Shown piece after piece: positions 9,979 through 26,529 of a stretch of 27,105 nt of DNA. The translations under genes were made by a program, and so were the position numbers. The DNA is taken from positions 1 to 27,105 of IMG/VR virus record IMGVR_UViG_3300023192_004300. One strand, 5' to 3'. The notes under the pieces are model-generated. The model did not search any database. It was not told the origin of the DNA and saw only the letters and a list, made by a program, of their open reading frames with translations. Every line of letters starts with the position of its first letter. Within the stretch, counting starts at the first letter, position 1. The stretch is from a virus.

Positions 9979-10419
9979 ATGGCGGCTTCGATTGTTCTTG
10001 TTAGGGGCCTACCTGGTAGCGGTAAGACCACATTCGTGGAGTGTTTCGTCGGAGACCCGATGATCTCTGCAGATGATTATATGATCGACAAAACAGGTTG
10101 TTACTGCTTCGACCCGAGCAGGCTCGGGGAAGTACACCAGAAATGCTTAAAGGAAGCTGAAGTACTCCTGAAGGAATTTGAGTGTGTAATTGTAGCCAAC
10201 ACATTCTCCATGCGCTGGGAGATGCAGCCTTACCTTGATCTGGCCAAGGCTAACAACGCGTGGCACTTCGTCGTCGACCTTTTCGACAATGGGTTGGCTG
10301 ATGAAGAGCTTGCCACTCGTAACAGCCACGGGGTCCCAATCGAGGGGATCCAGAGAATGAGAGCCAGGTGGGAACACGACTGGAAATCCGGCAGTCCACT
10401 TCCCCCTAAACTCAAATAG
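9979..10419 (+). CDS. P-loop polynucleotide-kinase-like protein (N4BP2/PNK-type)
   Basis: 146 residues. Walker A GLPGSGKTT is at residues 10-18. SADDYM follows at about 31, as in NEDD4BP2-like and T4 polynucleotide kinase domains where this Asp binds the 5'-OH acceptor. A hydrophobic strand, VIVANTFSMRWEMQPYL, is followed by the helical lid with Arg residues (ATRNSHG, QRMRARW). Likely a 5'-OH nucleic-acid kinase; a small-molecule kinase is the alternative. ATG 9979 has AAGAGG upstream and its own TATAAG promoter. It lies 10 bases upstream of tRNA-Leu, which would fit a role in tRNA repair, though that is inference from position. Confidence 0.82.
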   Translation: MAASIVLVRGLPGSGKTTFVECFVGDPMISADDYMIDKTGCYCFDPSRLGEVHQKCLKEAEVLLKEFECVIVANTFSMRWEMQPYLDLAKANNAWHFVVDLFDNGLADEELATRNSHGVPIEGIQRMRARWEHDWKSGSPLPPKLK

Positions 10420-11122: not shown

Positions 11123-11689
11123 GTAATGATGGAGCACTGTCATTCTACGGGATGCTGCTTGGGACTACATCGCACCATTGAAGCGAAGGTGATCGAAAGG
11201 TCATTTTCAACGTCTCAGCAACTTTGCCCGCTTCCCCTCAGTCTAACGACTGGGGGGATGTGACTGGCTTTGTTTCATCTAGCTTGGATGCTAACTGGCA
11301 CTACATCACCAATTTATGACGTGTCAGTCACCCCCCTTGCCAAGCTATTTTTGGTCACCTTCGAGTCTAGTCTCTGGGTGGCCTCTCGTTTTTCGGATAC
11401 TGAAGGGACTACATCAACGATGTTGTCGGGGTTTTTTAAGAGAGTTCCCCATTTATATCGACACCTTGTGTCACCCCTTAAAAACCACTCCCCCTCGACC
11501 TGCTTAGAGTACTAGAACTCCGGGCTTGTAGAGGCTAAAATTTTCAACCCGTCTCTCCAACTTCTTGCCGGAAAGCGAACCCTGAATGCTAGGCCGAATG
11601 CCTCTCTGGACTACATACAACGTTTACGTCTAGAGAATTATTTGTCGGCCATTTCTCTGCCACTCTCAGCTAATTGTCACGGAGGTGAA
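11123..11689 (+). ncRNA. Structured non-coding region upstream of the Ro-like gene; candidate Y-like RNA(s)
   Basis: No convincing gene lies here, although the neighbours are packed edge to edge. Visible structures are: CAGTC/GACTG plus CCCC/GGGG (11234-11256); GTGACTG (11260-11266) pairing with CAGTCAC (11325-11331), extended by GGGGG/CCCCC across an AT bulge; GGTCACC/GGTGGCC (11353-11383) followed by TTTTT; a GAC-t-ACATC/GATGT-t-GTC hairpin (11407-11425) followed by GGGG and six T; and GGTTTTTTAAG/CTTAAAAACC (11430-11486) enclosing GACAC/GTGTC. Ro/Rsr proteins bind Y RNAs, which are often encoded beside them, so one or more bound RNAs here is a reasonable inference. I see no tRNA-like YrlA domain. 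Confidence 0.5.
11151..11618 (+). repeat. Four degenerate copies of GATGCT-N5-GGGACTACATC
   Basis: Copy 1 is at 11151-11171, copy 2 at 11287-11307, copy 3 at 11396-11415 and copy 4 at about 11596-11618. Each has a GAT(G/A)CT-like hexamer, a short variable spacer and G(G/C)ACTACAT. Start-to-start distances are 136, 109 and 200 bases, so they are not a tandem array. They fall only in the leader of the Ro-like gene, within or next to the hairpins described there. Confidence 0.7.
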
Positions 11690-13264
11690 TTGAATCCTGA
11701 GGTCTTTTCTACATCTAATAAAACGCAAAATCCCGACACGACTAACGAAGCAGGCGGCGTAGCCTACTCGTACAGTCCTGAACACGGACTCGCGCAGTTT
11801 GCCATGACTGGCACACTGAACAAAACGTACTACGCTTCAGCGGAGTCCCAGCTGGACTCCATCACCACTCTCATCCCCCTGGTTAACGACGAGTACCTCG
11901 CCAAGCTGGCAGTCTACTCGCGTACCGAGGGCAGGATGAAGGACATGCCCACTCTCCTGCTGGCCTACCTGGGCGGCAGGAACCCGGGGCTGTTCAAGAA
12001 GGTGTTTCCGGTTGTTATCGACAACGGGAGGATGCTAAGAAACTTCTGCCAAGTAATTCGTTCTGGGGTTACTGGCCGGAAGTCCTTCGGTTCCATGATG
12101 AAGAAGCAGATCCAGGCTTGGCTAATTTCCAGGCCTCCCAAGCTTCTCTTCCGGGACAGCATCGGTTCCAAACCGTCGATTGCGGATGTGATCAAAATGG
12201 TGCACCCCAAAGCCCCTGACAAGGCCCGGGAAGCACTGTTCGGTTACCTCATCGGCAGAACCGTGGACATCAGTTTGCTCCCCGAGGTTATCGTAAGCTA
12301 CGAGAACCGGAAGGTCGACAGCACCATTCCCATTCACAGGGATATCTCTTTCGAGATGCTGACGAGCCTTCCCCTCAGCGATGAGGACTGGACTCAGATA
12401 GCTATGAACGCTTCGTGGACGCAGACGAGGATGAATCTCAACACGTTCCTTCGGCACAACGTATTCCGGGATCCTGAGATGGTCGACCTAGTCGCCAAGA
12501 AACTTCAGAGTCCCACACTGATCGGGAGGTCTCGCTGCTTTCCCTATCAGGTCATGACTACGTACTTCAACACGGATGCTGCTATCCTGACAGGGCCAAT
12601 CAAGGATTCCCTCATCTCAGCCATGGAGACTTCGGTCGAAAAGGTTCCGGAGATACCGGGAGCTTTATGGCTCTGCCCCGACACTTCAGCTTCCATGGGG
12701 GTCTCCATAACTGGGTACCGAAAGGGATCGAGTTCAAAGGCTACCTGTGTTCAGGTTGCAGCGTTGGTGACAAGCGTCATCGCCAGAAAGAACAAGCAGG
12801 CTCGTGTGCTTCCGTTCGATACGGTAGTACGCCATGAGCTGGCTCTCCAGGTAGATCCCCATCTGCCTATTCTCCACAACGCAAGAACTCTAGATCGGCA
12901 TGGAGGAGGGACATCCATCTCTGCTCCTCTGACCTGGTTGAACGATAACAAGATGCCGGGAAGTGCAGTCATACTCATTTCAGACAATGAGTCCTGGATC
13001 GACAGTTCCGACCGGTGGTCCTACCGCCGAACCGAGAACACGGCGGTCCTGCGTCAGTGGAACCTTTTCAAGGAGAGAAATCCACAGGCGAAATTGATCT
13101 GCATCGACCTTCAACCCGGTGGGACAGCACAAGTTCCGGACAGGCCTGACATACTCTCAGTAGGTGGCTTTTCCGATACTGTGTTCGAGGTAATCGCGAA
13201 TTTCCTGAAGCACGGGCACAGCGCGGACCACTGGGTAGAAAGCATCCACAACATAACCCTGTAA
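11690..13264 (+). CDS. rsr: TROVE/vWA-domain RNA-binding protein (Ro60/Rsr-like)
   Basis: 524 residues from TTG 11690, chosen because GGAGGTGA (11681-11688) directly precedes it; a TTG at 11642 is the alternative. Residues about 25-320 form the helical TROVE ring (GLAQFAMTGTLNKTYYAS; YLGGRNPGLFKKV; SFEMLTSLPLSDEDW). Residues about 323-520 are a von Willebrand A domain with complete MIDAS: D331-T-S333-A-S335, T408 in GGGTSIS, D432 in ISDNES. Ro60/Rsr proteins bind misfolded RNAs and Y RNAs and work with exoribonucleases in RNA quality control. Third positions are richer in G/C than in neighbouring genes, suggesting recent acquisition. Structured RNA flanks both ends. Confidence 0.92.
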   Translation: MNPEVFSTSNKTQNPDTTNEAGGVAYSYSPEHGLAQFAMTGTLNKTYYASAESQLDSITTLIPLVNDEYLAKLAVYSRTEGRMKDMPTLLLAYLGGRNPGLFKKVFPVVIDNGRMLRNFCQVIRSGVTGRKSFGSMMKKQIQAWLISRPPKLLFRDSIGSKPSIADVIKMVHPKAPDKAREALFGYLIGRTVDISLLPEVIVSYENRKVDSTIPIHRDISFEMLTSLPLSDEDWTQIAMNASWTQTRMNLNTFLRHNVFRDPEMVDLVAKKLQSPTLIGRSRCFPYQVMTTYFNTDAAILTGPIKDSLISAMETSVEKVPEIPGALWLCPDTSASMGVSITGYRKGSSSKATCVQVAALVTSVIARKNKQARVLPFDTVVRHELALQVDPHLPILHNARTLDRHGGGTSISAPLTWLNDNKMPGSAVILISDNESWIDSSDRWSYRRTENTAVLRQWNLFKERNPQAKLICIDLQPGGTAQVPDRPDILSVGGFSDTVFEVIANFLKHGHSADHWVESIHNITL

Positions 13265-13969: not shown

Positions 13970-15010
13970 ATGACTATCTCTGCTGACATCGTAGTGGGAT
14001 TGCAATACGGAGACTGTGGGAAAGGTAAAGTTACTAACTTTTTATGTGGGCCAGGTTCAACAGACCTGTTACCGGAGGTGACGGGGGATTACACCCACGT
14101 TGTAAGATACAACGGTGGTAGTAATGCTGGTCACACTATATTCCATCAAACTAAAAAAGTTGTGCTCCACCAAATTCCATCCGGTGTGTTGTCAGGTATT
14201 AAATCTGTTATTGGACCAGGGTGTGCAATTAGCCCAACCAACTTTTCCAACGAAGTTGAACAACTCTGCTCAATAGGATTTAGCAGAAATGAATTAGAGG
14301 ATCTAATTCTGATCTCTGAAAATGCCACAGTAGTAAGCAACGACCACCTAACCGAGGACAACGGCGATGAAAAAATAGGTACTACAAAAAGAGGTATAGG
14401 GCCCGCTTACAGGGACAGGTACGCTAGAACCGGCATCCTAGCCAAAGAAGTCAAATCCTTCCGACCCTTTTTAGTGGATATCTATAAAGAATTTTATACC
14501 AAAGGTGATGTACGCCTTCTCTTAGAGGGCGCTCAAGGTTTCGGGCTAGATATCCTATGGGGAGATTACCCCTATGTGACTTCAAGCCACTGTACAAGTG
14601 CTGGAGCACTCTTAAATGGAATTCCGCCACAAGCTGTGAGAAACGTTATAGGTGTTGCCAAAGTCTACGAAACGTACGTAGGTAAGAAATCCTTTCAACC
14701 TGTAGGTTCTATGTTTAGTCACATCAGGGATGCTGGTGGCGAATACGGGGCCACCACAGGTAGGCCGAGGCAATGTAACTGGCTTAACTGGGATTTACTA
14801 GAGCGATCAGTCCAAATAAATGGAGCTAGCATTGTTATTCTCAACAAACTAGACGTTCTAAGAAAACTCAACTACTGGGGTGTCCTAGTCGACAGCAAGC
14901 CAGTTATGTTCAATAATGAAGACGATTTTACATCTTGGCTTTATGATAGACTGTACAAACTACCTATGGTCAGAAAAGTAATATTCTCAGACAATCCAAT
15001 GACTGTATAG
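13970..15010 (+). CDS. Adenylosuccinate-synthetase-family enzyme (PurA/PurZ-like)
   Basis: 346 residues, close to archaeal PurA and phage PurZ and shorter than E. coli PurA (432). Landmarks: GLQYGDCGKGK (10-20), with D15 at the catalytic-base position and E of the usual GDEGKGK replaced by C16; RYNGGSNAGHT with the catalytic His; IGTTKRGIGPAY; LEGAQGFGLDI; YPYVTSSHCTSAGALLNG; GATTGRPR; LNKLDVL as guanine-binding NKxD. The family joins aspartate to IMP (PurA) or dGMP (PurZ) with nucleotide hydrolysis. As I recall, ATP-using PurZ enzymes lack this Asp, whereas GTP-using PurZ0 is nearer archaeal PurA. The substrate is therefore open: IMP/dIMP or dGMP. SD AAGGAG precedes ATG 13970. Confidence 0.9.
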   Translation: MTISADIVVGLQYGDCGKGKVTNFLCGPGSTDLLPEVTGDYTHVVRYNGGSNAGHTIFHQTKKVVLHQIPSGVLSGIKSVIGPGCAISPTNFSNEVEQLCSIGFSRNELEDLILISENATVVSNDHLTEDNGDEKIGTTKRGIGPAYRDRYARTGILAKEVKSFRPFLVDIYKEFYTKGDVRLLLEGAQGFGLDILWGDYPYVTSSHCTSAGALLNGIPPQAVRNVIGVAKVYETYVGKKSFQPVGSMFSHIRDAGGEYGATTGRPRQCNWLNWDLLERSVQINGASIVILNKLDVLRKLNYWGVLVDSKPVMFNNEDDFTSWLYDRLYKLPMVRKVIFSDNPMTV

Positions 15011-17568: not shown

Positions 17569-19554
17569 ATGATATTTAGCCCGCAAGATAACATCGACGA
17601 ACGAAAAGTGAGAATCTTCACCCTCAGCTCTTCGTTTGTAGACAACTTCGTAGGCCAACAGCCTAATTGGGGTCCGCTAGGTTACTTCACTTTTAAGAGA
17701 ACCTATGCGAGATCCACATCAGAGGGGCAAACAGAAGAATTTTGGGAAACCTGTAAACGCGTTGTTGAAGGCGTCTACAACATTCAAAAAATCCACTGCA
17801 AACGACTCATGCTTCCTTGGAACGAATCTAAAGCACAAAAAAGTGCACAAGAAATGTTTCAAAGGATGTGGGAGTTCAAGTTTACTCCCCCAGGTAGGGG
17901 ACTCTGGGTAATGGGGACAGACGTAGTCTACGAAAAAGGCTCCGCTGCTCTTAATAACTGTGCATTCGTAAGTACAGAAGAATTAGATATCGACTTCTCT
18001 GCGCCATTCTGCTTTCTCATGGACATGAGTATGCTTGGTGTAGGAGTTGGTTCGGATACCCGGGGTGTGGGAAAAGTTAAGCTTCAGGTGCCAAGGTACA
18101 CTGACAAACCTTTCGTTGTCGAAGACAGCAGAGAAGGATGGGTTGACCTAATAAGGATTATCCTTAATTCATTCGTAGGAAAAGGATACTATCCAATACA
18201 GATAGATTACAGCCAAGTCAGACCCAAGGGGTCGGTCATACACGGATTCGGGGGTGTCGCCTCCGGACCAGAGCCTCTCATAAAACTAGTGTCAAGTCTA
18301 AATAAACTCCTGACCCCAGCAGTCGAGGAAACCTATAAAATTTCTAGCACTCACATAGTAGATATATTCAACTATATTGGTAAATGTGTTGTTGCTGGTG
18401 GTATCCGACGAACTGCTGAGATAATGTTTGGGGAACCCGATGATAGTGAATTCGTCGCGCTCAAACAAGACAAAGAAGCTTTAATGGATAGACGTTGGGC
18501 TTCCAATAACAGTGTGTTTGGGCACGTTGGTATGGATTACAGCAGTATTGCTGATTCCATCGCAATAAACGGAGAACCGGGTATAATCTGGTTGGACAAC
18601 ATGCGTCACTTTGGGCGCATGGATGGGGAACGGAATGGTTTTGATGTCAGGGCTATGGGGTCTAACCCATGTTCTGAACAAACGTTAGAAAGTTTTGAGC
18701 TATGTTGTCTCGTTGAGACATTTCCGGCGCACCACGATGACTTAGAGGATTACCAACGAACGCTTAAGTTCGCCTACCTCTATGCAAAGACTGTTACGCT
18801 CGTTCCAACGCATGACCCAAGGACTAACGCCGTCATGATGAGAAACCGAAGAATAGGTTGCTCTATGAGTGGCATTGTCCAGGCCATGAGCAAGCTTGGA
18901 AGGCGTACTTTCCTTCAGTGGTGTGACACAGGTTACTTGTATATAAATAAGTTAGATAATACTTATAGTGAATGGCTGTGTATACCGAGATCTATTAAAA
19001 CAACAAGCGTTAAGCCAAGTGGAACCGTTAGCCTGCTTTGTGGGGCTACTCCCGGTATCCACTATCCACACTCCGAATACTACATAAGGAACATTCGGGT
19101 ATCAGAAACATCCCCCTTGGTCAAACAATGTATTGATGCCGGGTATATTGTGGAACAGGATTCTTACGCTGATGATACGAAAGTTGTATCGTTTCCAGTT
19201 AAAGAGAGTAACTTCTCTCGGTCAAAATTTGATGTATCAATGTGGGAACAGTTTGCCAACGCTGCTGACCTGCAAAAGCACTGGGCAGATAATCAAGTCT
19301 CTGTGACTATTACGTTTCAAAATGGTGAGCACCAAGAAATAAAATCATGTCTCGAAGTTTACGAAACAGCCCTTAAATCCGTGTCCCTACTCCCCTTACT
19401 AGATGAAGACCATGGCTATGTCCAGGCTCCGTATGTTAAAATAGATAAGGAAACATACGAATCTATGATCCAAGGAGTAAAGGAGTTAAAACTAGAAGCC
19501 GCTGTCCACGAAGTTACAGAAAAATTCTGTGACGGAGATAGCTGTGCTCTATAA
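17569..19554 (+). CDS. nrdJ: Class II (adenosylcobalamin-dependent) ribonucleoside-triphosphate reductase
   Basis: 661 residues, somewhat shorter than the monomeric Lactobacillus leichmannii enzyme it resembles. C131 (NNCAF) and C379 (ELCCLVE) fit the reducible pair. NPCSEQ (366-371) carries N366, thiyl-radical C368 and E370; the C368-C379 spacing of 11 equals C408-C419 in L. leichmannii. The tail C654-x4-C659 (CDGDSCAL) is the shuttle pair that is re-reduced by thioredoxin. KPSGTVSLL and ATPGIHYPHSEYYIRN are phosphate-binding and barrel motifs. The enzyme makes dNTPs from NTPs, needs B12 coenzyme from the host and works without oxygen. ATG 17569 has AGGAG 9 bases upstream. Confidence 0.95.
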   Translation: MIFSPQDNIDERKVRIFTLSSSFVDNFVGQQPNWGPLGYFTFKRTYARSTSEGQTEEFWETCKRVVEGVYNIQKIHCKRLMLPWNESKAQKSAQEMFQRMWEFKFTPPGRGLWVMGTDVVYEKGSAALNNCAFVSTEELDIDFSAPFCFLMDMSMLGVGVGSDTRGVGKVKLQVPRYTDKPFVVEDSREGWVDLIRIILNSFVGKGYYPIQIDYSQVRPKGSVIHGFGGVASGPEPLIKLVSSLNKLLTPAVEETYKISSTHIVDIFNYIGKCVVAGGIRRTAEIMFGEPDDSEFVALKQDKEALMDRRWASNNSVFGHVGMDYSSIADSIAINGEPGIIWLDNMRHFGRMDGERNGFDVRAMGSNPCSEQTLESFELCCLVETFPAHHDDLEDYQRTLKFAYLYAKTVTLVPTHDPRTNAVMMRNRRIGCSMSGIVQAMSKLGRRTFLQWCDTGYLYINKLDNTYSEWLCIPRSIKTTSVKPSGTVSLLCGATPGIHYPHSEYYIRNIRVSETSPLVKQCIDAGYIVEQDSYADDTKVVSFPVKESNFSRSKFDVSMWEQFANAADLQKHWADNQVSVTITFQNGEHQEIKSCLEVYETALKSVSLLPLLDEDHGYVQAPYVKIDKETYESMIQGVKELKLEAAVHEVTEKFCDGDSCAL

Positions 19555-20252: not shown

Positions 20253-20576
20253 ATGTCATCTGGTAAGGAATTATTGGATAAATACTTTAAGAAGGTTAGT
20301 GTGTTAAACTACTACTCTCCTGGAACTCTCCCATTTGGCTGCCCCAATCCTAAATACTACATAGTAAATTTAGGGAGATACGAACTAAAGTTAGTTCAAG
20401 CAAAGATGGCAAACAGAAACTTCCTAACCCTCAAAGTGGGTATGGCTCTAATCAAGGAATGGGAAAGCAAAAACACCACCCAGTTGGAGAACGACATTAA
20501 AGATGCTTATAGTATCATCATCAAAGATGCCCGATCTATACTAACAACTTTGGGAGTCCCCTTAAATGAAGTTTGA
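20253..20576 (+). CDS. Hypothetical protein
   Basis: 107 residues from ATG 20253 with AGGGG upstream. It is mostly helical and basic. It begins SSGKELLDKYFKKVSVLNYY and ends in a helix (DAYSIIIKDARSILTTL). No motif recognised. It overlaps the next, holin-like gene by 11 bases. Confidence 0.72.
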   Translation: MSSGKELLDKYFKKVSVLNYYSPGTLPFGCPNPKYYIVNLGRYELKLVQAKMANRNFLTLKVGMALIKEWESKNTTQLENDIKDAYSIIIKDARSILTTLGVPLNEV

Positions 20577-20751
20577 CCTCAAAACTATTCTAACAATCGG
20601 TGGCATCATCGTAACCCTTGCCGGGTTTTACCACTCTACTCAAATGAGGCTAGACCAACTAGAAGAGAAAGTTGTTGAGATAGAACAAGCAAATGCTAAA
20701 ATACTGAGGACAGTCAACCGTAGACTAAAAAAGCTTGGAAATTTAAATTAA
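20566..20751 (+). CDS. Small membrane protein with coiled coil, holin/spanin-like
   Basis: 61 residues from ATG 20566. Residues about 7-23 are a transmembrane helix (TILTIGGIIVTLAGFYH), followed by a charged coiled coil (MRLDQLEEKVVEIEQANAKI) and a basic end (RRLKKLG). This architecture resembles phage holin-associated or Rz/XhlA-like proteins. With a second small membrane protein just downstream and a muralytic gene at 25930 it may belong to a lysis or injection module; this is inference. Confidence 0.7.
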   Translation: MKFDLKTILTIGGIIVTLAGFYHSTQMRLDQLEEKVVEIEQANAKILRTVNRRLKKLGNLN

Positions 20752-20827: not shown

Positions 20828-21005
20828 GCTACTTAATAACATATTCGACGGAGCTATCTTTACTCTAATCATGTCAGGGATAGCCCAAGGAGCAGCCTTG
20901 CTGGCCATGGCCTATACTTATATGAAAGCTGTTGACCCAGAAATATGTAAGCTTGTTGACTATATTAAGTCTCAATTTGTAGTAGACCATGCCTTCCAAA
21001 TTTAA
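20820..21005 (+). CDS. Small single-span membrane protein
   Basis: 61 residues from ATG 20820. Residues about 11-33 form one hydrophobic helix (AIFTLIMSGIAQGAALLAMA), with a short acidic N terminus and a polar C terminus. No SD is visible and the gene overlaps the 1617-residue gene by 17 bases. A holin or virion-membrane role is possible. Confidence 0.55.
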   Translation: MVELLNNIFDGAIFTLIMSGIAQGAALLAMAYTYMKAVDPEICKLVDYIKSQFVVDHAFQI

Positions 21006-24000
21006 AAAGAAGACTGGCGCGTCTAAACAACAAGTTCACTCCCTTGCGGAAAGGCTGAGCATCCCGTGGGATGACGACCCCAAATTCAAGCGGTGGACTA
21101 AGAAGCTCACCGGAAAGTCTTGTTTAGATGCGATGGGCAAAGGTGAGCTATCTGTTGTTTATGCTGCGCTAAAGAAGAGGGGTAAGGAGAAGACTGCCGA
21201 GCAAAAAGTAAAGGTAAACCGTGAAGCTTTAAAGAACGCAACAAAAAAAGCTCTCACCAAAGCACCCAAAAAAGAACACATAAAAGCATGGCCTAGGCAC
21301 GCAGCGTTGAACCTTGGCCAAGCCAAGAGATTCCTAAAAGAAAAAAATATACCTGTGACGGCAGAAAACATCGCATACGCCATGTTACCGCCAACTCACC
21401 ATACCAAGAAAGAGATGGCCGGTATGATGAGAGCAAGTCACAAGGACTACTACAGGTGGGGGGCAAACCCAGATCCGAATGCTCCAGATCCTGGTAAACT
21501 AAAAAAGACTGCTGATAGAACCTTTACGGACAAGAACAAAACATACGACGTAGAAAAACTATGGAAGTCTAAAAGAAAGGTTAGAAAGATTTCTCCCGAT
21601 AAACTTTTGAGTACTACTGGCAAAACATGGGGCCATGGGGATAAGAAATATGGATGGAAGGATGTACTAGCAAACCCTGAAAAATACCCTAACGAAATGA
21701 AGCGAATAAACGAGGCCGATTTAAGCTATCCAATCGTAGTACGTAAAGGAATTGTAGTCGATGGTATTCATCGTCTCGTAAAGGCAAAGCAAACAGGGCA
21801 GTCAGTGCGTGCGATTAATCTGTCAGGAAAAGAAATGCGGCACGCTAAGGTACTGAGAAAGACTGCTGCCAAGACAACCGTCAAAGAACACTCCAGAAAA
21901 GGTAGGTCAGGACGACTAACGAAAGTAAAGGCTCATCAACGTGAGTATGCCAAAGGTTTGCCGGATAAGAGATATTTCGCCAGAATACCAAAGGTCTCTC
22001 GCCCCGAGACTTGGGAATACGTTGTTCAAGAACACTTGGCCCACAGGGCAGGTAAACACTTCGACCTCCGTCTCGCTAAGGACAAGAAGGCGCACTCCTG
22101 GGTAATAAGAAGACTTCCTAAGCCGGGAGAAAAAGTACTCGCAATCCATCAACCTACCCACACGCGTGAGTATATGGATTGGGAGGGTGTCATACCTAAG
22201 GGCTACGGCGCTGGTAAGGTTTCCAAATTTGGGCGTGGCCAAGTAGAAGTTGTTGAGGCTAACGAGAATAAGGTCATATTCAATAAATACGACGGTAAGA
22301 AAGCCAACGAGTACATACTGATTCGAACAGATGCCAAGAACTGGCTGCTGATGAACCGGACCACAACAGAAGGTAAGTACGAGTACCCTCGTCATAAGGA
22401 CAAGTACAAGTCCGCAAGATTCAGTGACTCTCTTGTGTATCAAGAGGGGATTATGCAGCCCAAGGTCGATGGGGCTCATGCTCTAGTTGTTCTACAGCCC
22501 GGTAGAAGGCCCAGAGTATTCAGCTATAGAACCTCCAAGAAAGGGGATGTCTTAGAATACACCCACAAGATACCTGGACTATTTGCAGAGAAAGTACCCT
22601 ACGGTACCAAAGCTGCTGTTCTCAGAGCCGAGGTCTTCATGACCGACAAGAGAGGTAGGGCTCTCCCCGCTGAGAGGACCGCTGCCGTGCTTAACTCGGG
22701 CATAGAGAGAGCTAGAGAGCTACAGAAGGGTACAGGGGGCCTTAAGATCCTCCCATTCGATGTAGCCACCTCTAAGGAAATACGTGGCTGGGCAGGGAAG
22801 GACATAAGCTACGAGCGACGTCTCGATATTGTAAAAGGGTTATCCTCCTCCATGCCCTTTTTGCTAACGCCAGACTTAGCAATTGATGAGAAGTCTAAGA
22901 GACGCATGATGGAGAAGGTACGCTCAGGTAAACACCCACTTACAAGTGAAGGAGTTGTCACCTGGTCCAAAGAGGGACCGATCAAGTCTAAAATAACAGA
23001 CGACGCTGACGTCTACGTTCATAGTGTATTCGAAGGGGAAGGGAAATACAAAGGAAAGGCCGCTGGAGGCTTTTACTATTCCAAGACTCCGGGAGGACCT
23101 ATAGCTGGTAAAGTTGGTTCCGGATTGTCGGATGCACAAAGGAAACAATTATGGGATAATAGAGACAGCATGACTGATAGAGTGGCCGTGCTAAAGTATA
23201 ACAAGAAAACTTCTAAGGGTGCCTTGTTTGCCCCCAGATTTATTAGTTGGCACGTGGATAAGAACATGGGGGCCAGTGAAATAAAGAAGACAGCCAATGT
23301 GAAAAAAACTCTAGAGCTGTTGAAGAAGGGCATCCTGCCGCAAACCAAGGCAGACAAGGCTCTACTAGCAGCTGCTTGGGGGACCCCCATGTTTGGGGTA
23401 GTGCCAACTGCGCACGCTGTGATTGGGGCCAAGAATATTTTGAAAAAGCCAGTTGTAAAAAGAGTACCGTCTTTTTGGGGAGAAAAGGAATGGACTGCTG
23501 AATCAGCCAAGTTACTTAAAACAGGCTCAGCAGCATTCGATAAAAGAAAGAAATTTATTGACCACCTCACAGGTCAATTAGAAACTGAAGGCAGTACGGC
23601 CTATGGACAGCATAGAAGAATAGCTGTAAAAAAATCTAAATTTAATCTCAAAACTTTAAAAAGAATGGGTTTCAAGACCTCTTTCACAGGTATACCTGAA
23701 CCAGGGCAGTCAAAGTTCAGAACTTGGAGAGGTCCCAAGGGGCTCCATGTCCATGACCACGGATCTCACTGGGTCATGCACCGAGACGCCTACGACCCAC
23801 GTAGGGGATCTCCCAAAAAGTTATGGGCCCATGTAAAAAAAGAAGGGCTACCGGCCCATAAATATTACAAAAAATGGGTAGCGGCGAGGAAAGGGACAGT
23901 CCTAGAAGCCCTCAAAAAACCCATCGAAGCTGTGAAAGCAATTCCAGAGAAGATTAAGATGGCCAGAAGAAAAGACGACATAAAGATAGGTCCAGCGCCG

Positions 24001-25842
24001 CTGGTCGGTGGAGGTCTGGGATTTCTGGGTTCTATCGGTAAAAGCAGACCCTTAACTGGGAAGGGCACCCAGTTCAAAGACTTTAATTCATTTACAAAAT
24101 CTCTGAAGCCAGGAGATATCTTACTCACAGGTCAAGCAACTGGGCAAAACGCCCCCACCACACCCAAGTTCTGGATCTCTGTCGGTACAGGTACCCCCAC
24201 AGCTACACATACCGCAGTAGTAGAAAAAGTTCTTGGTGATGGACGTATCCAAACTATTGACTTTACCGCCGACGGTTATCGAAGAATTATATACGACAAG
24301 ACAGCTATAGATCCACGAGAGGGTAGGCCTCAGATTCTTACTGCACTTAGGCCCAAAGATAAGCAAGTAGCGGCCAACGCTTTAAGCAACTATCAAAGAA
24401 AAACACAAGCATTCCATGCGCTAGAGGCAGAGTTAATAGGAAAAGGCGTGCCCAAACGCCAAGCACGACAAATGATAAGCGCTACCTTTACAGGTGGAAC
24501 CCGGGGTGGCGCAGTCGCCTTCAGGGAACTATTCTTACCATACTTCAAAGATAACAAAGTAAAAATACAAGCCCAACAATCACAGCACGCTGAGGCCCTT
24601 AAAGTACTAGAACAATCAGTTCCCGAAACTGCGGACAGAATGTCTAGACGGTGGGCCTCCGGTGAGAGCGTCAAGTCTATCTCCAGATCAGAAATCCCCA
24701 GGTGCCTTGGTGGTATGTGCTCAACTTCAATAGCCGCCTCTGGTTATCCAACAGCAGGAAAATCATCGGTACCCTACTTCGCCACGCCTGCTGACGCCCT
24801 GAGAAGCGCAGAGGGTATGACTTCTGTAGGCAGATTTAATCCGGTAAACCCAGGCATAAACAAAATTATTAATCCCATGCTTCGGTATTCACCAAACATA
24901 TCTAGAGCGGTGTTGGGGGGTGCCCTAATAGCGGCCCCAATGGCTGCTGGTATATACGGCTATAAGAAGCTCAGAAAGAGTATGGCCGCGAAAAAACTAG
25001 AGGCAGAGATGCCAAAAATAGCTAACAGGAAGCCCCTGACTAAAGAGCAGAGGACTAAACGGGAACGAAGTATATCTAGGTACCGGCGTTCCATCGCCGG
25101 TGGTTTAGGCGTTGGTGCTACAGCGGGGGTTGCCACAGGTCTAAAAGACTACCACATGAAGAAGGATTACTACGAAACTCTAACCGAGAAAATAAAAGAG
25201 CCCCTAAGTAAATCCGAAAAGAAGGTACTAGACCAAGCTAAAAAAATTCCATACTTCGGTAAAAAATTATTAAAGGCTTGGAAGCCTGGAACCGCTGCAG
25301 ATGCTATACCTTCTTGGTCTAAATTTGCACCACAGATAAGAGCGGGATCTTTAAAGGCCGCCAGGGGCGTGGGGATTATAACCGCCCTAGGTGGAGCCGG
25401 GACTTTGTATGCTCTTGACAAAATGAAAGAGAAAGAGGAGCGTAAGAAAAAGTCTAAGACAGCTAGCCAACAAAATGCTAACTACACAGCTACCCGATTG
25501 AATACAGGCCCTCTTACCTTCAGCTCCGAGTACGTCGAAGGGATTGAAGATGCTAATAAAAAAACATCATATCAAATAACCCAATCGACAGATCGGGGTA
25601 AAATGATACCCGCCAGGAGACGCTCTCGCATCTACCTCAAGGATAGGCCTAGCAAAGCCGGTAATCTTAAAATACCTGTAAACCAACCTATCCAAGAGGG
25701 GGCGGCGTTCGGCCTAGTCGCAAAGAGCACCTCGAAAGCAAAAGTTAAATCTGCTTCGAAGAGTACAACAAAAATACAAGAAATAATCGCAGCCAAGGAA
25801 GCCAAGAACCAGGCTCTCCTTGAAAAAATAACAGTGCAATAA
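20989..25842 (+). CDS. Giant multidomain protein: ParB/Srx-like motif, LigD 3'-phosphoesterase, ATP-dependent DNA ligase, permuted NlpC/P60-like peptidase
   Basis: 1617 residues, very Lys-rich. Order: a small N-terminal domain (about 1-65, IPWDDDPKF, KKLTGKS). ParB/sulfiredoxin-like motif VVDGIHRL (256-263). LigD-type phosphoesterase (about 325-440) with H349, H357, D359, R361, H391, Y395 and WEGVIPKGYGAGKV. ATP-dependent ligase core with motif I K492-V-D-G, E548 (motif III region), SEGVV (653-657, motif IV), K666-S-K668 (motif V) and an OB-like GKVGSGLSD part. A His-rich module (GLHVHDHGSHWVMHRD). A permuted NlpC/P60 (YiiX-like) domain with GDILLTG (1042-), H1074 and C1244. Three glycine/alanine-rich hydrophobic stretches (1307-1324, 1368-1385, 1459-1477). 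It may be a virion or ejected protein that seals DNA ends; this is inference. K-T-A tripeptides sit between modules. Confidence 0.88.
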   Translation: MPSKFKKKTGASKQQVHSLAERLSIPWDDDPKFKRWTKKLTGKSCLDAMGKGELSVVYAALKKRGKEKTAEQKVKVNREALKNATKKALTKAPKKEHIKAWPRHAALNLGQAKRFLKEKNIPVTAENIAYAMLPPTHHTKKEMAGMMRASHKDYYRWGANPDPNAPDPGKLKKTADRTFTDKNKTYDVEKLWKSKRKVRKISPDKLLSTTGKTWGHGDKKYGWKDVLANPEKYPNEMKRINEADLSYPIVVRKGIVVDGIHRLVKAKQTGQSVRAINLSGKEMRHAKVLRKTAAKTTVKEHSRKGRSGRLTKVKAHQREYAKGLPDKRYFARIPKVSRPETWEYVVQEHLAHRAGKHFDLRLAKDKKAHSWVIRRLPKPGEKVLAIHQPTHTREYMDWEGVIPKGYGAGKVSKFGRGQVEVVEANENKVIFNKYDGKKANEYILIRTDAKNWLLMNRTTTEGKYEYPRHKDKYKSARFSDSLVYQEGIMQPKVDGAHALVVLQPGRRPRVFSYRTSKKGDVLEYTHKIPGLFAEKVPYGTKAAVLRAEVFMTDKRGRALPAERTAAVLNSGIERARELQKGTGGLKILPFDVATSKEIRGWAGKDISYERRLDIVKGLSSSMPFLLTPDLAIDEKSKRRMMEKVRSGKHPLTSEGVVTWSKEGPIKSKITDDADVYVHSVFEGEGKYKGKAAGGFYYSKTPGGPIAGKVGSGLSDAQRKQLWDNRDSMTDRVAVLKYNKKTSKGALFAPRFISWHVDKNMGASEIKKTANVKKTLELLKKGILPQTKADKALLAAAWGTPMFGVVPTAHAVIGAKNILKKPVVKRVPSFWGEKEWTAESAKLLKTGSAAFDKRKKFIDHLTGQLETEGSTAYGQHRRIAVKKSKFNLKTLKRMGFKTSFTGIPEPGQSKFRTWRGPKGLHVHDHGSHWVMHRDAYDPRRGSPKKLWAHVKKEGLPAHKYYKKWVAARKGTVLEALKKPIEAVKAIPEKIKMARRKDDIKIGPAPLVGGGLGFLGSIGKSRPLTGKGTQFKDFNSFTKSLKPGDILLTGQATGQNAPTTPKFWISVGTGTPTATHTAVVEKVLGDGRIQTIDFTADGYRRIIYDKTAIDPREGRPQILTALRPKDKQVAANALSNYQRKTQAFHALEAELIGKGVPKRQARQMISATFTGGTRGGAVAFRELFLPYFKDNKVKIQAQQSQHAEALKVLEQSVPETADRMSRRWASGESVKSISRSEIPRCLGGMCSTSIAASGYPTAGKSSVPYFATPADALRSAEGMTSVGRFNPVNPGINKIINPMLRYSPNISRAVLGGALIAAPMAAGIYGYKKLRKSMAAKKLEAEMPKIANRKPLTKEQRTKRERSISRYRRSIAGGLGVGATAGVATGLKDYHMKKDYYETLTEKIKEPLSKSEKKVLDQAKKIPYFGKKLLKAWKPGTAADAIPSWSKFAPQIRAGSLKAARGVGIITALGGAGTLYALDKMKEKEERKKKSKTASQQNANYTATRLNTGPLTFSSEYVEGIEDANKKTSYQITQSTDRGKMIPARRRSRIYLKDRPSKAGNLKIPVNQPIQEGAAFGLVAKSTSKAKVKSASKSTTKIQEIIAAKEAKNQALLEKITVQ

Positions 25843-25929: not shown

Positions 25930-26529
25930 ATGAAAAAATTGTTTTTCTACCTAGTTGTGGCTAGTACCCTACTGGTCCCATCTCACGTATCAGCGGCCCA
26001 CATAAGTGGTGGTGGTCGCAAGCCACCTAAGTCGCTTTCTATAAAACAAGTTGACGTGATCAATAGAATCACCTCCTATTTAAAGGAGCGACACCCAAAG
26101 GAGGATACTATAGAGATCGTGGCTATAGCTATGGTCGAAACGAATCTCAAGGAAGGTCTGATAAGTCACACTGGTGACTACGGCCTTCTACAGGTGAACT
26201 GCAAAGTTCACAAGAAAAAGCTAGCCAAAAGGCTAGGTCTAAAGAACTGTCGTAAGGACATGTTCATTTTAGAACATAATGTAGACGCTGCCGTCCTAAT
26301 ACTAAACCTCTTCCGAAAATATCGGGCGTGTAGAAAGAGTAATCTTTACTCTTGTTACAACGGAGGACAAGGATGGCGAGTCGTCGGTCAAAAATGTAGA
26401 GTCGAGCACTGCGGAAATCGTGACTGCAAACGATGCAACAGACCAGCAAGATACGCATCATCAGTAAGAAAACACATACGATTTCTGAACAAGAAGTACT
26501 CATACTTATTTAATGTAGAAAAGCAGTAG
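25930..26529 (+). CDS. Secreted lytic-transglycosylase-like (SLT) lysozyme
   Basis: 199 residues from ATG 25930. A Sec signal peptide (MKKLFFYLVVASTLLVPSHV, cleavage near SAA-HI) is followed by an SLT/goose-lysozyme-type core: AIAMVETNL with catalytic Glu, HTGDYGLLQVN, a central helix and CYNGGQGW near the end of the fold. The family cleaves the MurNAc-GlcNAc glycosidic bond. Several cysteines (CRVEHCGNRDCKRC) cluster in the C-terminal part and might form disulfides or bind metal. A signal peptide on a phage muralytic enzyme suggests holin-independent export or release into the periplasm. It is distinct from the cytoplasmic amidase at 1012-1923. Confidence 0.85.
   Translation: MKKLFFYLVVASTLLVPSHVSAAHISGGGRKPPKSLSIKQVDVINRITSYLKERHPKEDTIEIVAIAMVETNLKEGLISHTGDYGLLQVNCKVHKKKLAKRLGLKNCRKDMFILEHNVDAAVLILNLFRKYRACRKSNLYSCYNGGQGWRVVGQKCRVEHCGNRDCKRCNRPARYASSVRKHIRFLNKKYSYLFNVEKQ

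Follow-up and report, generated by a model that had tools for sequence, protein, structure and literature searches.

A 1617-residue phage protein with LigD-type phosphoesterase and ATP-dependent DNA ligase domains, and its relatives in phage contigs

What could the phosphoesterase and ligase domains of a LigD-like enzyme be doing in one giant phage protein? The question is raised by IMGVR_UViG_3300023192_004300, a linear virus record of 27,105 bases in IMG/VR, analysed here at its full length (the window). A sequence-only reading had placed both domains in a single long frame lacking a polymerase domain, together with a ParB/Srx-like motif and a permuted NlpC/P60-like peptidase. The present analysis upheld that description apart from the peptidase, whose identity is unproven.

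Domains of the giant protein

The gene encodes 1617 amino acids with no interruption, and the product has a predicted pI of 10.2 and a lysine content of 13.4%. Its features are as follows.

20989..25842 (+), gene of the putative polyvalent-type multi-domain protein, 1617 aa
21013..21288 (+), N-terminal region, residues 9-100, weakly like GemA (PF06252, E=0.007, below cut-off) and phrog_286 (E=0.0037)
21508..21822 (+), ParB/Srx-like domain with a DGIHR motif, residues 174-278, phrog_17560
22009..22359 (+), LigD-type 3'-phosphoesterase (PE), residues 341-457, catalytic H349, H357, D359, R361, H391 and Y395
22447..23268 (+), minimal ATP-dependent DNA ligase (LIG; nucleotidyltransferase plus OB), residues 487-760, K492-V-D-G, E548, E654-G and K666-x-K668
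23545..23874 (+), unnamed domain, residues 853-962
24070..24768 (+), candidate permuted papain-fold/NlpC-P60-like peptidase, H1074 and C1244
24898..24954 (+), most hydrophobic stretch of the protein, residues 1304-1322

The span singled out earlier, 21960-23270, corresponds to residues about 324-761 and takes in PE and LIG. Every residue that had been named (H349, H357, D359, R361, H391, Y395, K492, E548, S653-E-G-V-V657, K666, K668, H1074 and C1244) was found at its claimed position.

The PE is a member of the LigD 3'-phosphoesterase superfamily (PF13298) by Pfam match, by its six catalytic residues and by fold. Pfam LigD_N matches residues 347-430 over the cut-off (E=1.2e-13). The NCBIfam model of the LigD PE domain (E=1.3e-17) and the mycobacterial LigD model PRK09632, which spans PE and ligase (residues 339-728, E=4.7e-21), both score under the NCBI full-length cut-offs. 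The Korarchaeal PE 3p4h was reached at E=1.6e-18 by single-sequence phmmer and at 2.4e-33 by a profile of 13 family members, and the AlphaFold model matched it with a TM of 0.83 in Foldseek. The EGxIPxG-YGAG loop is one residue shorter in the window and in several relatives. PE chemistry is a healing of 3' ends, by which 3'-phosphates and 3'-ribonucleotides are removed (PMC8656161); going by its conserved residues, the window protein may act in the same way.

The second domain is an ATP-dependent DNA ligase with KxDG, EG and KxK motifs and an OB domain, the latter matching PF14743 just under the Pfam cut-off (E=9e-5). The PDB entry 2cfm, a DNA ligase, was reached at E=1.5e-12 by the profile built from 13 family members. 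The AlphaFold model (pLDDT 88) matches the T4 and LigE ligases in Foldseek with better scores than the LigD ligase. The viral structure matches listed are DNA ligases, mostly with alignments of about 300 columns and no more than 20% identity, and no clear PE-ligase fusion is among them. Profile searches and structure prediction together confirm the presence of the pair in one giant phage protein.

The ParB/Srx-like region matches phrog_17560, a PHROG of unknown function, at E=1.4e-8 and in a second search at 1.0e-11, and DGxHR is invariant in four aligned sequences; Pfam and PDB profile searches returned no match. The PHROG and the motif speak for a ParB/Srx-like partner, as proposed earlier. 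phrog_17560 occurs in three of the 41 records compared (the window and 40 related ones), the PE-LIG giants of G002 and G057 among them, and always in the same ORF as PE-LIG. The region also matches a gene of Croceibacter phage P2559S (E=4e-3) that lies between capsid-annotated and tape-measure genes.

The domain at residues 853-962 recurs in locus L122, after PE-LIG in the same protein, and in L094, where it stands ahead of a C39-like peptidase; that protein, of 1032 aa, is separate from the stand-alone PE-LIG and encoded upstream of it. The L094 arrangement parallels the order in the window. For the permuted NlpC/P60-like peptidase, the His/Cys pair is present, the CHAP match is below threshold (E=0.017), the single-sequence structure model is uninformative (pLDDT 35), and no homologue of the region was found in the 40 related records. 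The C-terminal third of the protein is without a confident homologue.

The tripeptide K-T-A occurs six times in the protein (residues 68, 173, 291, 767, 1104 and 1490), mostly between domains, against 1.4 expected (15 of 5000 shuffles). Near the N-termini of proteins in related contigs (L087-L131), a hydrophobic-x-K-x-A-small motif was counted in 22 proteins, compared with 3.5 in shuffles. A K-x-A motif serving as a virion-protease site or tag is only suggestive, the motif having been picked post hoc and Arash phage (see below) showing no clear excess.

Related sequences in viral collections

Scanned as single sequences against the viral collection, neither the PE-LIG segment nor the whole protein found a relative. 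The PE motif itself, canonical or one residue shorter as in the window, led to 37 loci; PE and LIG occur together, at 30-41% identity, in about 14 of their records. Four loci (L018, L019, L024 and L027) were discarded as chance matches to an unrelated protein. With a 13-member alignment as query, 49 viral loci were obtained, and 36 distinct near-full PE-LIG sequences, including the window, were aligned. All six PE catalytic residues are present in every one of the 36, as are ligase residues K492 and K668; E654 and K666 are each kept in 35 and E548 in 31. Because active-site residues are conserved across 36 sequences, a chance match is excluded.

In total about 35 related phage contigs carry the pair. 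At single-sequence sensitivity, tblastn against 50,697 phage records gave distant ligase-domain matches only and no PE, and searches of the phage collection with the PE alone, the C-terminal half or two other PE-LIG members returned no PE-LIG. In genomes of bacteria and archaea the similarity was mostly at the level of the PE. The open-licence literature searched contained no account of such an enzyme in a phage. The window protein belongs to a viral PE-LIG family, apparently undescribed, of uncultured large phages. These sequences define a phage family of LigD-like PE-LIG enzymes without Ku or polymerase, and its natural PE-ligase fusions could serve as reagents.

Stand-alone PE-LIG proteins of 433-607 aa form the majority among the 36 sequences. 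Giant forms were found at ten or more loci, combined with SNF2 helicase, 2H phosphoesterase, NUDIX, peptidase or ParB-like domains. Architectures include:

L100 (= L069; 9323-14947 in L069), 1874 aa, PE-LIG, ParB-like phrog_17560, intein, SNF2
L115, 2977 aa, 2H, PE-LIG, ParB-like, SNF2
L117/L073, more than 1800 aa, PE-LIG, NUDIX, SNF2
L105/L128, 1491 aa, PE-LIG, NUDIX, DUF5661
L104, 1271 aa, SNF2, PE-LIG, weak Zn-peptidase match
L129, 1461 aa, SNF2, PE-LIG
L122, 1269 aa, PE-LIG, the 853-962 domain of the window, DUF5661; the next gene is an SNF2-type helicase
L110, L111 and L126, PE-LIG at the C-terminus

Ahead of the L100 giant comes a 1576-aa protein containing a 2H domain; in the giant itself, intein-like splicing domains (PF14890, E=1e-7) lie between the ParB-like part and the end of the SNF2 part. 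Around the giants of L100, L104, L115, L128 and L129, PHROG and Pfam searches gave no match for most of the neighbouring genes. In the tree, the window pairs with the stand-alone L087 (support 100/99) and the giant L129 with the stand-alone L099 (100/100). Because giants group with stand-alone forms, the tree suggests repeated fusion or fission of PE-LIG; at least three changes are seen, but the starred branches force only one and a single origin is compatible.

Two other fusions of LigD domains were met. A 1992-aa ORF (L080:9554-15532, -) contains, in order, DNA ligase, mCpol, GGDEF, LigD primase-polymerase, sigma-70-like and LigD PE domains, so that the three LigD activities are all present, together with signalling domains, but not in the order of LigD. 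A 998-aa protein (L079:9303-12299, +) joins LigD PE, ASCH and a eukaryotic-type topoisomerase I.

Gene neighbourhoods

In the window the giant ORF is flanked by two genes:

20566..20751 (+), holin-like small membrane protein, phrog_1296 (E=5e-6), upstream
25930..26529 (+), SLT-type lytic transglycosylase with a hydrophobic N-terminus, PF01464 (E=2.2e-9), downstream

The sequence-only reading had likened this setting to a structural or ejection region. The holin-like and transglycosylase genes are indeed there, and the window holds no recognised virion structural gene. Because capsid, portal and terminase genes were not recognised among the window proteins scanned, the window alone does not prove a virion context. 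An amidase endolysin, four tRNAs, an exonuclease (phrog_704) and a polynucleotide-kinase-like P-loop protein (9979-10419, phrog_505, E=1.3e-7) are encoded elsewhere in it.

Three further genes of the window were recorded. The product of 13970-15010 is an adenylosuccinate synthetase-like phage protein (E=3.7e-77; PHROG name 2-aminooxy adenylosuccinate synthetase), and 17569-19554 encodes a class II ribonucleotide reductase; from these two genes a modified-base (Z) genome is possible. A Ro60/TROVE-like RNA-binding protein, here in a phage, is encoded at 11642-13264.

Homology to an RNA polymerase was found in 37 of the 41 records, mostly in giant ORFs. One member each of the RNA polymerase and TerL clusters was identified by profile; PE-LIG has a polymerase-cluster gene no more than 10 kb away in 16 loci and a TerL-cluster gene equally close in 11. 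In L118-L121, near-copies from one lineage, TerL is 11 nt upstream of PE-LIG. In L103, PE-LIG starts 2 nt after a polymerase-cluster ORF, and only a few nt separate the L104 giant from a baseplate J-like gene downstream. Directly upstream of PE-LIG in L087, the nearest relative of the window, is an RNA-ligase-like gene. The giant RNA polymerase ORFs (L087, L103, L123, L125, L130 and others) are mostly 1,450-2,600 aa in one frame and adjoin or lie near PE-LIG; the phages concerned are for the most part uncultured.

The nearest cultivated relatives of this RNA polymerase are in Salmonella phage Arash and Vibrio phages D69, D148 and D181. In Arash its gene is annotated near the portal gene. The polymerase was the most-detected protein in purified Arash virions by mass spectrometry, and RNA ligases, a helicase and a DNA ligase were also found (PMC10585845). 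As the same authors point out, abundant, highly expressed enzymes may simply be carried along during purification (PMC10585845).

Possible roles and comparison with known systems

For the polyvalent proteins, large proteins of phages and conjugative elements that join unrelated enzymatic domains in one chain, injection along with the DNA has been proposed (Iyer et al. 2017, PMC5512222). The PE-LIG giants fit this class in carrying several unrelated domains per phage polypeptide. They may lie among late genes: lysis genes flank the giant in the window, and TerL, RNA polymerase or baseplate J genes adjoin PE-LIG in relatives. The reading we prefer, at a probability of about 0.5 with the uncertainty over activity included, is that the window encodes a polyvalent-type protein whose centre is a Ku-free and polymerase-free PE-LIG, delivered by the virion for early repair of the incoming DNA. 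That the enzyme is active, is packaged and ejected, and has phage DNA as its substrate, we infer. At nicks or damaged ends the PE would strip off 3'-phosphates or terminal 3'-ribonucleotides, leaving a 3'-OH/5'-P break for the ligase to close by way of AMP on K492. The protein would be kept on DNA by its ParB/Srx-like domain and its strongly basic chain. Because of the domain company (SNF2, 2H, NUDIX and peptidase in relatives) and the late-gene surroundings, the protein may be made late, packaged and carried into the cell with the genome, so that incoming DNA would be repaired before phage genes are expressed. The wider proposal, that widespread uncultured large phages package a Ku-free PE-LIG, as part of giant virion proteins or alongside a virion RNA polymerase, eject it with the genome and repair DNA before expression, falls a little short of an even chance. 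The family offers a directly testable case for asking if phages carry DNA repair enzymes into the host along with their genome.

The main rival to virion delivery is an ordinary intracellular phage DNA ligase with 3'-end cleaning, used in replication or repair, the giants being incidental fusions that are not packaged. Since no DNA ligase besides PE-LIG was recognised in 34 of the 41 records, PE-LIG may simply be the phage's own ligase, although other divergent ligases may have escaped, as the ATP-ligase profile misses the known PE-LIG in 16 records. The predominance of stand-alone forms and the RNA-ligase-like gene beside PE-LIG in L087 point the same way. Against it, seven records do hold a second DNA ligase (ATP-dependent in two, NAD-dependent in five), and both the recurrent embedding with SNF2, 2H, NUDIX, peptidase and ParB-like domains and the proximity to TerL, baseplate J and phage RNA polymerase are unusual for a replicative ligase. 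We hold this rival to be a serious contender, though on balance doubtful. Virion delivery is likewise something we infer, because PE-LIG is mostly stand-alone and usually the only DNA ligase found, as fits an ordinary phage ligase; the pointers toward delivery come from relatives, in the polyvalent architecture, the baseplate J gene of L104, the TerL of L118-L121 and, in 37 records, homology to an RNA polymerase whose nearest cultivated counterpart occurs in virions.

Two further explanations carry far less weight. Phage non-homologous end joining, a LigD-like and Ku-dependent joining of genome ends after entry (circularisation), would account for the order and sequence of PE-LIG, which resemble LigD in the PRK09632 match. 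Searches of the same 41 records, many of them fragments, found neither Ku nor the LigD primase-polymerase in any, while both controls were detected in B. subtilis; a LigD system of this kind is rejected on that result, which also extends the earlier claim of a missing polymerase domain beyond the window. The PE is moreover nearest to archaeal PEs, and the ligase fold nearer to T4 and LigE than to the LigD ligase, so that this explanation is very improbable. Anti-defence repair, in which PE-LIG and a 5'-kinase would mend 3'-phosphate or otherwise blocked 3' ends left by host defence nucleases or restriction glycosylases, is favoured by the 3'-end healing chemistry of PEs and by the polynucleotide-kinase-like protein and exonuclease of the window. 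No defence target is known, and this account differs from the preferred reading in substrate, not in delivery; we regard it as unlikely.

Arash and the three Vibrio phages offer the nearest cultivated counterparts of the RNA polymerase near PE-LIG genes; they differ in that no PE-LIG homologue was found in them, the Arash DNA ligase Gp177 being only 360 aa. With polyvalent proteins (PMC5512222) the giants share large size, the union of unrelated enzymatic domains, including ParB/Srx-type, SNF2 and 2H, and, in PE-LIG relatives, a place near virion genes. They differ in that the ligases in the text of PMC5512222 are RNA ligases only, with no LigD domain, and that the zincin peptidase typical of the class was not seen in the window protein; DNA end-repair would be added to the activities of these proteins. 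The archaeal LigD-PE of Candidatus Korarchaeum (3p4h) is the nearest solved PE by both sequence and fold, but it is cellular and its solved structure comprises the PE alone. Bacterial LigD resembles the viral enzymes in that a single chain carries the PE and, after it, an ATP-dependent ligase, arranged as in mycobacteria and with the same catalytic residues. Unlike LigD, the viral PE-LIG comes without polymerase domain or Ku, has the shorter PE loop in the window and several relatives, has a ligase fold that scores nearer to T4, LigE and archaeal ligases, and is found embedded with ParB-like, SNF2, 2H, NUDIX or peptidase domains.
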